A DNA stretch of 64,000 nucleotides from assembly GCF_000422905.1 (NCBI RefSeq), contig NZ_AUGY01000009.1, positions 1-64,000 on the forward strand. The letters are read 5' to 3'. A program made the translations under genes and the position numbers. This document shows positions 1,936-7,723 of the stretch, piece after piece (positions within the stretch are counted from its first letter, which is position 1; every line of letters starts with the position of its first letter). The DNA comes from Paenibacillus alginolyticus DSM 5050 = NBRC 15375. Its GTDB lineage: Bacteria; Bacillota; Bacilli; Paenibacillales; NBRC-103111. The notes beneath the pieces were generated by a model that worked only from the letters and a program-made list of their open reading frames with translations, did no database searches and had not been told where the DNA came from.

Positions 1936-3774
1936 TTATTTTTTTTGTTCGTCAACTACTTCGTAATCCGCGTCGACAACATTTTCTCTTCCTTTAGGTG
2001 CTTCGCCTGCGCCGGCTGCACCTTCAGCTCCTTGAGCTTGAGCAGCTTGCTCATACAGCTTCACGGAAAGCTGTTGAATAACTTCTGTCAACTCTTCAGT
2101 TGCTTTTTTGATCGCTTCGAGTTCGTTACCAGCTAGAGCAGCTGTTACTTTCTCTTTTGCAGCGTTCGCTTTGTCTATCTCGACTTGGTCTACTTTATCG
2201 CCAAGATCTTTGATCGTTTTGTCAACGGAATAGACGAGTTGATCCGCTTCGTTGCGAGCTTCAACAAGCTCTTTACGGTTACGGTCTTCCTCAGCATGAG
2301 CTTCCGCATCTTTGACCATTTGTTCAACTTCTGCATCGCTTAAGCCGCTGGAAGAAGTGATCGTAATTTTTTGGCTTTTGCCAGTACCTTTGTCAAGTGC
2401 AGACACGTTAACGATACCGTTCGCATCGATATCGAAGCTAACTTCGATTTGCGGTACACCGCGTGGAGCTGGAGGAATATCTCCAAGCATGAAGCGGCCA
2501 AGTGTTTTGTTCCCGCTAGCCATTGAACGCTCACCTTGAAGAACGTGAATCTCAACGCTAGTTTGGTTATCAGCATAAGTGGAGTACACTTGTGATTTGG
2601 TTGTAGGAATCGTTGTATTGCGGTCGATCATTTTCGTGAACACGCCACCCGCTGTTTCGATACCCAAGGAAAGTGGAGTTACGTCAAGAAGAACGACGTC
2701 TTTCACTTCACCCGTCAATACGCCCGCTTGAACAGCTGCGCCAAGAGCAACAACTTCATCTGGGTTAACGCCTTTATGAGGCTCTTTACCCGTCAATTTT
2801 TTGATCGCATCTACAACTGCTGGAATACGCGTGGATCCACCGACAAGAACAACTTTGTCGATTTGGCTAGTGGACAAACCGGAATCCTGCAGTGCTTGAC
2901 GAGTTGGTCCAAGTGTTCTTTCAACAAGGTGAGCGGAAAGCTCTTCGAACTTCGCACGAGTTAGGTTCAACTCCAAATGCTGAGGAACGCCGTCAGCTAC
3001 TGTGATGAACGGTAGGGAAACGGTTGTTGTCAAAACGCCGGAAAGCTCTTTTTTCGCTTTTTCAGCTGCATCTTTCAAACGTTGTACTGCTGCTTTATCT
3101 TTGGAAAGGTCGATGCCTTGCTCTTTTTTGAATTCAGCTACGAGGTAATCGATGATGACTTGGTCGAAGTCGTCGCCGCCAAGCTTGTTGTCTCCACTTG
3201 TTGCTTTAACTTCAAAGAAACCATCGCCTAATTCAAGGATGGATACGTCAAATGTACCGCCACCAAGGTCATAAACGAGAATCGTTTGATCTTCTGTTTT
3301 TTCCAAACCGTAAGCTAGTGCTGCTGCAGTTGGTTCATTGACGATACGAAGAACTTCAAGACCGGCAATTTTACCCGCATCTTTCGTAGCTTGACGTTGG
3401 CTGTCATTGAAATAAGCAGGAACCGTAATAACGGCTTGCGTTACCGTTTGACCAAGGTAAGCTTCAGCATCAGCTTTCAGCTTTTGCAGGATAATGGCTG
3501 AGATTTCTTGTGGCGTGTAATCTTTGCCATCGATGTGTTCTTTGTGGTTAGTACCAATGTGACGCTTGATGGAACTAATTGTTTTATCTGGGTTTGTGAT
3601 GGCTTGACGCTTTGCTGTTTCACCAACAACACGCTCGCCATCTTTCTTGAAACCAACAACGGAAGGGGTTGTACGGTTACCCTCCGGGTTAGGAATTACG
3701 ACGGCTTCGCCGCCTTCCATTACGGCAACGCAAGAATTTGTTGTACCTAAGTCAATACCAATTACTTTACTCAT
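1936..3774 (-). CDS. dnaK: molecular chaperone DnaK (Hsp70)
   Basis: ATP-dependent Hsp70 that binds exposed hydrophobic peptides. The start is the ATG giving [14 protein letters not shown], preceded by AAGGAGGCAG with good spacing; an 11-residue upstream extension in frame lacks such a site. The 612-residue product shows the Hsp70 ATPase signatures ([10 protein letters not shown] at the N terminus, [13 protein letters not shown] and [12 protein letters not shown] in the middle, [12 protein letters not shown]), the linker [13 protein letters not shown], the substrate domain, and an acidic C-terminal tail rich in Gly/Ala/Gln. Central gene of the CIRCE-controlled operon, 68 bp after grpE. Confidence 0.99.
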
Positions 3775-4487: not shown

Positions 4488-6029
4488 TTAGGCCTCTTCA
4501 AAAGGCTGTTTCATTTTAATGACCGTATGAATACGCAGCACAGCGGCAGCGACTTCTCCAGCCGCTTGCAGAGCGTGAATTTTCACATCAGCTGGATCCA
4601 CAATGCCTGCTTCCAAGAAGTCAGTCACTTGTCCGGTATCGCAATCGATACCAAGGCTATCGGTTTCCAGCGCAATCTGCGCGGCTTTCAGCTCTTCAAC
4701 CTTCTCAAGCGGATTATATCCCGCATTGACGACGATCTGAGCCACCGGCTTGCGAAGTGCCCCTGCGACAGCGGCAACCCCGAAGCCTTCCATGCCCTTC
4801 ATCGTCTCGCGGACGCGCTCGAGATCATGGGCGACCGCCATCTCCGCGGCGCCGCCTCCGGGCAAGTACCCGCCGCGCACGGCGGCTTGAACGGCTGACG
4901 CAGCGTCCTTCGCAATGCGCGAGCGCTCATGCGCCGCTTCGCGTGTCGCGGCGCCAACGATCACGGTCACGTGCTGCTCCCCGTGACCGCGCGCTACGCG
5001 CACGCGCTCCAGCCGCTCGTCGTACGCGGCATAGCCCGCGTGCCCTAGGGCGGCGCCGAGCTCCGGCGCGCTCTTACGCAGCGCTGTGCGCCGCACCGGC
5101 CTAGCGCCGGTGTGCTCGCTCAGCAACTGCATGTCCCTGCGGGACAGCCGCTGCAGCACGAGAATGCCATGGTCGGAGCAGAACTGCTCCGCCTCGGGAT
5201 CAACCCCGCGGTCGGATGCGATCAGACCGACGCCAAGCTCCAGCAGCAAGCCTAAGCTGCTGCGGAACTGCTCCCGCAGCAGCATGTAGCGCTGGAAGCC
5301 TGCCTCGGTGACCAGCGCTTCTTCGCTGACCGCCTCAGGCTCCAAGGCATCATGCAACACGAGGATTCGAGCATCTCGCTGCTCGTGCTCGAGATGCAAG
5401 TTCATAGGCTTCTGGTTCAGCAGAATGCCGGTCCATACCTCGCTGCTCGCCTCTTCGTGAGCGAGCACGCTGTCTGCGAAGCGGTAGCCGTCTTCGCGAA
5501 GCTTCGCCTCGCCGACCGCTTCGGCTGCCTGAACGATGAGCTTTGCGATATCCGCTTGCTCCCTACCGGCCGTGATAGCAATGCGCTTCAGCGCGCTATC
5601 ATTTAAGCCGACGATCGCGCGGCTTCGGCTCTGTAAGCTTTTGACTGCCATCTCGATGCCTTGCAGCATGCCGCTGACGACCTTCGCAACCGGTACGCCG
5701 CGCGTCACCTGAGCGACGCCTTCTTGCACCAATGCTCCGGCAAGAACCGTTGCCGTCGTTGTCCCGTCGCCGATTTGGCGCTGCTGGCTGCGTGCGACCT
5801 GAATCATCAACCTGGCAGCGGGGTGGGTAACGTCCATCTTTTCCAAAATAGTCACACCATCATTAGTAATGATGACTTCACCCTGCCCGCCAACCAACAT
5901 GGTATCGAGACCTTTGGGACCAAGCGTCCCCTCGACTGCCGAACAAATCGCTCTTACAGCAGCAGCATTGTTGACCAGCGTAGAGTAACGTTCCTCACCC
6001 TCGCTATGAACTGTTTTCATTCCGCTCAT
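4488..6029 (-). CDS. group III (thermosome/CCT-like) chaperonin
   Basis: A 513-residue HSP60-fold chaperonin whose closest signatures are archaeal thermosome/CCT, not GroEL. Visible blocks: SAVEGTLGPKGLDTMLV, the nucleotide-binding ITNDGVTILEKMDVTHPAAR, the catalytic-loop GDGTTTATVLAGAL, PGGGAAEMA, and the C-terminal block GIVDPADVK...AAAVLRIHTVI, which resembles the thermosome segment ending in LRIDDVI. Bacterial genes of this kind inside dnaK operons are known from Carboxydothermus and some other Firmicutes (group III chaperonins). The ATG overlaps the hrcA stop in an ATGA, implying translational coupling; there is no strong ribosome site of its own. The middle of the gene (about 4750-5600) is visibly richer in G+C than its neighbours. 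Likely an ATP-driven folding chamber made under HrcA control; clients unknown. Confidence 0.92.
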   Translation of the reverse strand: MSGMKTVHSEGEERYSTLVNNAAAVRAICSAVEGTLGPKGLDTMLVGGQGEVIITNDGVTILEKMDVTHPAARLMIQVARSQQRQIGDGTTTATVLAGALVQEGVAQVTRGVPVAKVVSGMLQGIEMAVKSLQSRSRAIVGLNDSALKRIAITAGREQADIAKLIVQAAEAVGEAKLREDGYRFADSVLAHEEASSEVWTGILLNQKPMNLHLEHEQRDARILVLHDALEPEAVSEEALVTEAGFQRYMLLREQFRSSLGLLLELGVGLIASDRGVDPEAEQFCSDHGILVLQRLSRRDMQLLSEHTGARPVRRTALRKSAPELGAALGHAGYAAYDERLERVRVARGHGEQHVTVIVGAATREAAHERSRIAKDAASAVQAAVRGGYLPGGGAAEMAVAHDLERVRETMKGMEGFGVAAVAGALRKPVAQIVVNAGYNPLEKVEELKAAQIALETDSLGIDCDTGQVTDFLEAGIVDPADVKIHALQAAGEVAAAVLRIHTVIKMKQPFEEA

Positions 6030-7054
6030 TTGCCATACCAACGTCCAAGAACGACTTCAAGATGCTTCGACAAATGCTCCATTAAACTAATGACCCTGCC
6101 GTATTCCATTCGAGTTGGACCCAAAATCCCTATCGTTCCAAGCGGCTTATCACCGATCGAATAGGAGGCTGTTATTAAGCTGCAATTATTGATAGCTTCA
6201 ATACTATTTTCAGCACCAATTTTAATCTCAATGCCTTCATTTGCCGATGTAAACAATTTGATAAGGGTTGGTGCTTCTTCCAATAGATCAAAGATGCTCT
6301 TGACCTTGTCAACATCCTTGAACTCGGGTTGGGTCAACATATTCGTCATACCGCTTAGGAAGACGCGATCCTTCTCATTGCTTTGAAGCACACTTTCCAC
6401 AACCGCAAGAAGCTCTTGATACCCATTCACATATTTGCTTAACTCGCTCGAAATTTCATTATAAAGCCTAGATTTAAACTCAATCAACGGTACATTTTTA
6501 AGCTTAGCATTCAGAATATTAACGACCTTCTCGATCTCAGACATCCGTATACCTTCAGGAATGGAAACTGTTTTATTCTCCACATGACCCGTATTCATAA
6601 CAATAATGGCTACGGCTGTCGTCTCTGTAAGCGGGATAATCTGCAGGTGTTTCAGCGTTGTACTGAATACCTCAGGGCCAAGCACGATCGATGTATAATT
6701 CGTAAGACTGGAGAGCATTCCCGCAACATGCTGGATCACACCTTCCATCTCTTGAATGCGTTCGGCAAAAGCACCCTTCATGGAGTCCAAATCGTTATTA
6801 TGCAAGGTACCGTGTTGAAGCAAATGATCGACATAATAGCGATAACCTTTGTGTGAGGGTATACGGCCTGCGGACGTATGGGGCTGCTCCAAGTAACCCA
6901 TTTCTTCGAGATCAGACATCTCGTTACGGATCGTCGCCGGACTGAATCCGACATTGCCCCGCTTCGAAATACTTCGCGAACCAATTGGCTCTGCTGAACG
7001 AACATAATCATCAATGATAGCACTTAAAATCATGCGCTGACGCTCCGTCAACAT
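6026..7054 (-). CDS. hrcA: heat-inducible transcription repressor HrcA
   Basis: Repressor that binds CIRCE and shuts off chaperone genes when chaperonin is in excess. The 342-residue product begins MLTERQRMILSAIIDDYV, a winged-helix DNA-binding domain with SPATIRNEMSDLEEMGYLEQPHTSAGRIPS, then the GAF-like and inserted dimerisation domains; it ends in LGRWYGK. I placed the start at the ATG preceded by AGGAGGGG; an upstream extension of nine codons runs through that ribosome site. First gene of the operon, downstream of a perfect CIRCE, and coupled by ATGA to the chaperonin gene. Confidence 0.98.
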   Translation of the reverse strand: MLTERQRMILSAIIDDYVRSAEPIGSRSISKRGNVGFSPATIRNEMSDLEEMGYLEQPHTSAGRIPSHKGYRYYVDHLLQHGTLHNNDLDSMKGAFAERIQEMEGVIQHVAGMLSSLTNYTSIVLGPEVFSTTLKHLQIIPLTETTAVAIIVMNTGHVENKTVSIPEGIRMSEIEKVVNILNAKLKNVPLIEFKSRLYNEISSELSKYVNGYQELLAVVESVLQSNEKDRVFLSGMTNMLTQPEFKDVDKVKSIFDLLEEAPTLIKLFTSANEGIEIKIGAENSIEAINNCSLITASYSIGDKPLGTIGILGPTRMEYGRVISLMEHLSKHLEVVLGRWYGK

Positions 7055-7096
7055 AAGGTACCCCTCCTCTTCACAAATCACTATTTGCCACTTTCG

Positions 7097-7123
7097 TTAG
7101 CACTCGTATTTAGTGAGTGCTAA
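7097..7123 (-). promoter_or_regulatory. CIRCE operator for HrcA
   Basis: Perfect CIRCE: TTAGCACTC, 9-nt spacer, GAGTGCTAA. It lies just downstream of the hrcA promoter and about 45 bp before the hrcA start. HrcA bound here should repress the whole operon, including the archaeal-like chaperonin. No second CIRCE was seen before grpE, dnaK or dnaJ. Confidence 0.97.
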
Positions 7124-7134
7124 ATCCTAATACA

Positions 7135-7164
7135 AAAATAACAGACCCTAAGGTCTGTTGTCAA
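7135..7164 (-). promoter_or_regulatory. sigma-A promoter of the hrcA operon
   Basis: On the minus strand TTGACA (7159-7164) and TATTTT (7135-7140) are separated by 18 bp; the predicted start falls at or beside CIRCE. The spacer is occupied by the terminator hairpin of the preceding gene. Confidence 0.75.
7140..7159 (-). terminator. terminator of the GNAT gene, nested in the hrcA promoter
   Basis: AACAGACC and its complement GGTCTGTT form an 8-bp stem with a 4-nt loop, followed on the minus strand by ATTTTTGTATT. It begins only six bases after the GNAT stop codon and lies between the -35 and -10 boxes of the hrcA promoter. Confidence 0.75.
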
Positions 7165-7165
7165 G

Positions 7166-7645
7166 TCAATCCAATCGTTTAAGTACGGCGATTTCATCGC
7201 AGCAATACTGTTTTTTGCAATGCATACAATCTTTCCAAACCTTCTCCGGGAAAATATCTTTCGGCACGAGGGTAAAGCCGTTTTTTTGAAAAAAAGCGAC
7301 TTCATACGTGAGCGCCATCACTTTAATAATTCCTTGGCTCCTTGCCTCTTCAACTAAGAAGTTCACAAGTTTTCCGCCAATTCCTTGCCCCTTGTAGCCT
7401 GGGGTCATCCCAAGTGAGCGAATCTCAACAAGATCAGGCCCAAGCCGTGTAAGGGAGCCGCAGCCAATCAGCAAGCCATCCGATTCAGCGACAACGAAAG
7501 TGTCAATCTGCTCCTCCAGCATCTCTTTGCTCCGCGGCAGCATAATTCCCTGCTTGGCATACCCTTGTATAATATCATGCAGCTTCTCAATATCACTTAT
7601 CGAAGCTTTCCTAACGGACACTGTAGTTGATAGATTCACTGTCAT
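7166..7645 (-). CDS. GNAT family N-acetyltransferase (ArgA-like)
   Basis: Acetyl-CoA dependent N-acetyltransferase. The product (about 159 residues) has the GNAT core: VRKASISDIEKLHDII at the N terminus, EIRSLGMTPGYKGQGIGGKLV (the acetyl-CoA-binding Q/R-x-x-G-x-G/A loop), and ALTYEVAFFQKNGF. The C-terminal stretch PEKVWKDCMHCKKQYCCDEIAV, with a Cys-x-x-Cys pair, is typical of the short ArgA-type N-acetylglutamate synthases (COG1246), so an arginine-pathway role is plausible but not certain. The start is uncertain: ATG 7645 has only a close GGTGGG; an in-frame GTG at 7690 is possible. A TGTATA/TATACA dyad lies upstream. Confidence 0.8.
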   Translation of the reverse strand: MTVNLSTTVSVRKASISDIEKLHDIIQGYAKQGIMLPRSKEMLEEQIDTFVVAESDGLLIGCGSLTRLGPDLVEIRSLGMTPGYKGQGIGGKLVNFLVEEARSQGIIKVMALTYEVAFFQKNGFTLVPKDIFPEKVWKDCMHCKKQYCCDEIAVLKRLD

Positions 7646-7723
7646 CCCACCAATCGCAACAAAAATGCATAAAACCCACGCTAGCGCCACTACGGCTTTG
7701 CCGCTGATTCGCTTGTGGATTCA

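Follow-up and report, generated by a model that had tools for sequence, protein, structure and literature searches.

A close known relative of the chaperonin analysed here is Ch-CPN of Carboxydothermus hydrogenoformans, for which both ATPase and folding activity have been published (PMC5635000, PMC12696368). According to An et al. 2017, group III chaperonins (195 were counted) come mostly from extreme environments, share a set of catalytic residues and the lack of a nucleotide-sensing loop, and include one gene lying outside a dnaK operon (PMC5635000). Published work also places group III genes within dnaK operons, under regulation by HrcA (PMC5904260). Among group I chaperonins, GroE raises the binding of HrcA in Campylobacter and, as cited in the same work, acts on the repressor in Bacillus subtilis and Chlamydia (PMC8533110). 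No paper on group III chaperonins in Paenibacillus, or on such chaperonins acting on HrcA, was found by title or abstract start, most subscription papers being outside the coverage of the search.

The window, that is, the whole stretch of 64,000 nucleotides analysed from Paenibacillus alginolyticus DSM 5050, lies at the beginning of contig 6; the genome has a size of 8.3 Mb and is split into 214 contigs. Its minus strand carries the genes in the order hrcA-cpn-grpE-dnaK-dnaJ, with the following elements:

7135..7164, minus strand: sigma-70-type promoter-like site (TTGACA, 18 nt, TATTTT), a consensus match only, with 10 of 12 matches
7097..7123, no strand assigned: perfect CIRCE, 0 mismatches in two 9-base arms
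6026..7054, minus strand: hrcA, heat-shock repressor, 342 aa from its ATG, with the own-genome PF01628 match at G000:C6:6089-6742
6026..6029, minus strand: ATGA shared by the hrcA stop and the cpn start, a putative site of coupling, with a ribosome-site match of 3 nt (GGT) only
4488..6029, minus strand: cpn, group III chaperonin, 513 aa
5235..5357, minus strand: built-in lid of cpn, spanning about residues 225-265 and corresponding in the alignment to residues 223-263 of Ch-CPN (PMC5635000)
3843..4427, minus strand: grpE, 194 aa, TTG start preceded by the ribosome site AGGAGGTG
1936..3774, minus strand: dnaK, 612 aa
538..1653, minus strand: dnaJ, 371 aa

The original prediction had described a thermosome-like chaperonin of 513 residues flanked by hrcA and grpE, its ATG overlapping the hrcA stop, behind one perfect CIRCE, and each of these elements was recovered: the quoted motifs are all present in the translation, the gene order is confirmed on the minus strand, ATGA is shared at 6026-6029 and the CIRCE ahead of hrcA has no arm mismatch. 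From family knowledge this CIRCE is presumably the operator of HrcA; CIRCE-type matches with up to 3 mismatches have a mean expectation of 0.04 in shuffles of the window. Promoter-like sites number 15 in the region, where shuffled sequence gives a mean of 7.7, and no terminator-like site was found on the operon strand from hrcA to grpE. The promoter-like site at 7135-7164 overlaps a terminator-like hairpin (7140-7159), which may terminate the upstream acetyltransferase-like gene (7690..7166); site and hairpin both fall inside the interval 4488..7164 of the original prediction. The reading frame of cpn is intact and of full length. Its dN/dS is about 0.035-0.06 in six pairwise comparisons with relatives, as low as those of hrcA and grpE, and cpn is therefore under purifying selection.

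The product of cpn is a group III chaperonin and not a GroEL, on the grounds of the tree, the catalytic residues, the absence of the loop and the predicted fold. The protein matches Pfam PF00118 with 344 bits; it scores 263-265 bits with thermosome models and 148-173 bits or less with GroEL models, all of these under the curated cut-offs. The best sequence matches in the PDB are 9rwq, a reconstructed ancestor, and Ch-CPN of C. hydrogenoformans (5x9u). Entry 9rwq carries conflicting names, ancestral group II for the molecule and ancestral group III in the title. The predicted monomer has a mean pLDDT of 84, being poor (below 50) at residues 38-66 surrounding the TNDG motif, and a fold search with it ranks 5x9v and 5x9u first, with a TM-score of 0.85 and 43% identity. 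The chaperonin tree comprises 71 rows: 62 group III, 2 group II and 7 GroEL (eight GroEL regions were fetched, of which L232 yielded no protein and was left out). All 62 group III rows fall on one side with an SH-aLRT of 92 (not starred), the thermosomes form a separate clade (2 rows, 100, starred) and the GroELs are set apart at 100 (starred), with a warning from the tree program about the long branches of group II and GroEL, which meet. The cpn of the window nests with its order (15 rows, 100, starred) and its class (35 rows, 98, starred). The phylogeny that the original prediction had proposed as a check places the protein among the group III chaperonins and separate from groups I and II, and the scores, the lid and the structures agree with its description as thermosome-like rather than a GroEL paralogue.

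The catalytic residues of cpn are D57 (the Asp of TNDG), D88 (the Asp of GDGTTT) and D375, equivalent to Asp373 of Ch-CPN. The nucleotide-sensing loop is missing, as a six-column gap with respect to group II, and an Arg (R156) is present instead; D88, R156 and D375 are conserved in 62 of 62 group III rows. Residues L239, F245, Y248 and F255 of the lid match L237, F243, Y246 and F253 of Ch-CPN, at positions that are not strictly conserved (56, 56, 35 and 56 of 62 rows, in that order). The TNDG Asp, which is taken here to be the position of GroEL Asp52, is replaced by Ala in five of the 62 group III proteins (L100, L104, L165, L173 and L206), where the other catalytic residues are kept. The lid is shorter by some 13-15 residues in the proteins of L165 and L166 (genomes G512 and G535), which may therefore be natural near-lidless group III chaperonins.

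The arrangement CIRCE-hrcA-cpn is old and widespread. A total of 162 loci were read, 156 of them distinct by HrcA and DnaK sequence, and every one of the 162 has a perfect CIRCE no more than 700 nt ahead of hrcA. Among the five genes sought, cpn is the next after hrcA in 152 of 152 cpn-bearing loci, where the order is hrcA-cpn-grpE-dnaK-dnaJ in 148 and hrcA-cpn-dnaJ in 2, with 2 more truncated at the end of a contig or locus; the 10 remaining loci, picked for the absence of cpn, read hrcA-grpE-dnaK-dnaJ. A survey of neighbours comprised 80 of the 128 other cpn-matching genomes of the phylum and identified hrcA in 80 of 80, adjoining cpn in 77 (exceptions are G729 and G694, at contig ends, and G738, a split copy). 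In 75 of the 80, dnaK is near cpn. Exceptions are G682 and G866 (contig ends), G721 (no dnaK match) and two real cases, G798 and G844; eight genomes were hand-picked including these two, so 2 in 80 is no rate. In both, a CIRCE-hrcA-cpn-dnaJ operon was identified without grpE and dnaK (L226:7019-9720 in G844; L227:4993-8851 in G798). Their dnaK is located on another contig, has no CIRCE and adjoins a MerR-type gene with HspR as its best family (101.5 and 80.2 bits, under the cut-off of 105), with grpE adjoining in G798 and clpB nearby in G844. The cpn proteins of G798 and G844 form a sister pair in the chaperonin tree (99, starred), so the departure of dnaK may be one event. To the published setting in an HrcA-regulated dnaK operon this comparison adds scope: the incidence, the 152 loci and the operons lacking dnaK.

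Matches to the window protein were identified in all 30 sampled genomes of the genus, 91 of 104 of the family (the other 13 with GroEL-level matches only), 83 of 198 of the order (115 without), 61 of 398 of the class and 129 of 398 of the phylum, in samples that overlap, contain the genome of the window and count partial or decayed copies. A scan of named genomes with short peptides of the protein, a method that picks up close relatives, gave 71 loci, nearly all of Paenibacillus. The family includes soil and plant isolates, as judged from record titles. From the statement that such genes were known from Carboxydothermus and a few Firmicutes, the dnaK-operon setting stands and the rarity does not, given these phylum matches and the number already counted by An et al. 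(PMC5635000). Given the absences in the family and the order, the benefit of the chaperonin is conditional. The cpn-less loci studied are 10 of the 115 in the order sample and were chosen by hand. In a 90-row tree built from HrcA, DnaK and DnaJ (leaving out L098, L057, L091 and L095, with the twins of the last three, L209, L140 and L213, included) they represent at least six changes, or eight when two decayed copies in the order are counted, G032 with an internal deletion and G189 with a frame change, and the absences are read as losses. All ten genomes retain hrcA and a perfect CIRCE. Decay in place was observed in L138, L141, L146, L147 and L230, where a cpn with an internal deletion, frame change or stop lies by an intact hrcA. 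L103/L134 (G050) and L145 (G934) were rejected as broken copies, the reported stop being the natural end, and the frameshifts of L098/L219 (Paenibacillus sp. P25, G078), which affect both cpn and hrcA, are probably assembly errors.

The descent of cpn is read as mainly vertical with lineage-specific rates. Within Paenibacillaceae (67 loci) its distances correlate with those of hrcA (0.79) and dnaK (0.76), and a recent transfer was rejected, since cpn nests with its order and class and these distances track both neighbours. Over 57 diverse loci the correlations of cpn are 0.42-0.45 versus 0.81-0.85 among hrcA, dnaK and dnaJ; they drop to 0.25-0.28 when the most cpn-distant quarter of loci is removed and reach 0.69-0.72 after centring. 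Given this weak fit, a deep transfer is possible.

The ATGA overlap is a trait of some Paenibacillaceae and not of group III chaperonins generally. It was identified in 57 of 152 cpn loci, all of this family, requiring two changes on the order tree, and in 29 of 30 genomes of the genus, with a spacer in G008. In this count L172 and L188 were assigned by hand to the spacer class, the sole start at -4 being TTG, and the hrcA stop of L150 was misplaced. In 24 close named relatives the ribosome-site match is of 3 nt only (GGT). Among the loci with a spacer, 91 of 95 have a match of at least 4 nt near some candidate start, a count that takes the best over all candidate starts and flatters these loci. 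From the overlap and the weak site, translational coupling of hrcA and cpn in the group of the window is plausible.

A single groEL was found when it was sought elsewhere in the genome, as the original prediction had advised, on a different contig from cpn, with groES adjoining and a CIRCE with one mismatch. The genome-wide scan for CIRCE with up to 3 mismatches gave 5 forward-strand sites against 3 for a reversed control pattern, and therefore only the sites with 0 and 1 mismatches are convincing.

With good confidence, cpn is considered to encode a working group III chaperonin under the control of HrcA and CIRCE, second to GroEL and dispensable, which perhaps takes clients of DnaK; support is good for the part on a dispensable second chaperonin controlled by HrcA. 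The proposal builds on direct observations: the family of the protein and its catalytic residues, the order of the genes, the operator, the overlap, purifying selection on cpn, its descent with the taxonomic order and its patchy absence. The product would assemble into eight-fold rings and act as an ATP-driven folding chamber, closed by its built-in lid and needing no GroES. HrcA bound at CIRCE would repress cpn jointly with hrcA, grpE, dnaK and dnaJ. Under heat or misfolding stress, cpn should therefore increase together with DnaK, and GroESL separately. In this Paenibacillus group the ATGA overlap and the weak ribosome site probably link the translation of cpn to that of hrcA. A hand-over of clients from DnaK may complete the scheme.

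Other readings share part of this evidence. A divergent GroEL paralogue, which the matches to GroEL models might suggest, is extremely improbable and was rejected: thermosome models score higher, the tree sets the 7 GroELs apart and refutes it, a lid is present, and group III structures come first by fold. Hardly more credible is a fading relic with no current use, a reading that takes up the 13 family genomes lacking the gene and the decayed copies in G032 and G189; all 30 genomes of the genus carry cpn, its dN/dS is as low as those of hrcA and grpE, and the catalytic residues are intact. That cpn mainly receives clients of DnaK, hence its place in the dnaK operon, was proposed by An et al. 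(PMC5635000) and is a tentative alternative falling somewhat short of even chances. The proximity of dnaK in 75 of 80 phylum genomes agrees with it, although a shared operon may reflect shared regulation only, many relatives bearing DnaK lack cpn, and the two related genomes where cpn stays with hrcA and dnaJ, away from dnaK, weaken a strict partnership.

The same two genomes, lacking local dnaK and grpE, speak for a dedicated partner of HrcA, which would fold or stabilise the repressor as GroE does and, when titrated by misfolded proteins, would switch the CIRCE regulon. The position of cpn after hrcA in every cpn-bearing locus, the 57 overlaps and the effect of GroE on HrcA in Campylobacter, B. 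subtilis and Chlamydia (PMC8533110) point in this direction as well. The reading is nevertheless improbable: the ten sampled cpn-less genomes retain hrcA and a perfect CIRCE, only some Paenibacillaceae have the overlap, an alternative exists in GroEL, and HrcA shows no clear change of rate, the HrcA/DnaK distance ratio being 2.74 in the ten losers, against 2.55 in 12 near keepers (p 0.12) and 2.74 over the full set of 73 keepers. A crude column screen, which ignores relatedness, gave nothing clear as to special HrcA residues in cpn-less species. HrcA was identified in 392 of 398 genomes of the phylum and the 6 genomes without it are all absent from the cpn list; six are too few, and co-occurrence was dropped as uninformative. 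Similarly doubtful is the wider view of CIRCE-hrcA-cpn as a regulatory module of its own, in which cpn would be a second stress sensor of HrcA, separate from GroEL, and which would account both for cpn staying beside hrcA where dnaK and grpE left and for the joined translation in some Paenibacillaceae. The modulation of HrcA put forward in the original prediction found no support, the retained hrcA and CIRCE and the similar HrcA distances counting against an obligatory role only. It is unlikely that HrcA depends on cpn to function; an optional feedback is possible by analogy with GroE in other bacteria, and nothing here requires it.

Group III chaperonins, described in print as coming mostly from extreme environments (PMC5635000), are present here in 91 of the 104 genomes sampled from a family with soil and plant isolates, and related genomes naturally lack them. 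The culturable species of the family are a test ground for what a second chaperonin serves and for effects on HrcA or DnaK, and the two genomes with CIRCE-hrcA-cpn-dnaJ could separate the link to HrcA from the link to DnaK.

Compared with known systems, cpn shares with the archaeal thermosome (group II) the fold, the built-in lid, GDGTTT and the catalytic Asp, whereas the thermosome has a nucleotide-sensing loop, a longer lid and a separate clade. GroEL (group I) belongs to the same superfamily and both loci of this genome have a CIRCE, but GroEL is lidless, works with its partner GroES and forms a separate clade. The GroE-HrcA feedback of B. subtilis, Chlamydia and Campylobacter (PMC8533110) likewise involves a chaperonin gene under HrcA and CIRCE; it was demonstrated for GroE, whereas a role of group III on HrcA is a possibility by analogy. 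The closest system is Ch-CPN of C. hydrogenoformans (5x9u, 5x9v), of the same clade and 43% identical over the fold alignment, with the same catalytic Arg and Asp, a built-in lid and no nucleotide-sensing loop, encoded in a locus (L183) where the gene is also flanked by hrcA and grpE in a dnaK operon with a perfect CIRCE. The differences are that its host is a thermophile and that its cpn starts at least 15 nt past hrcA behind an AGGAGG site, whereas the cpn of the window overlaps hrcA and has a weak site.
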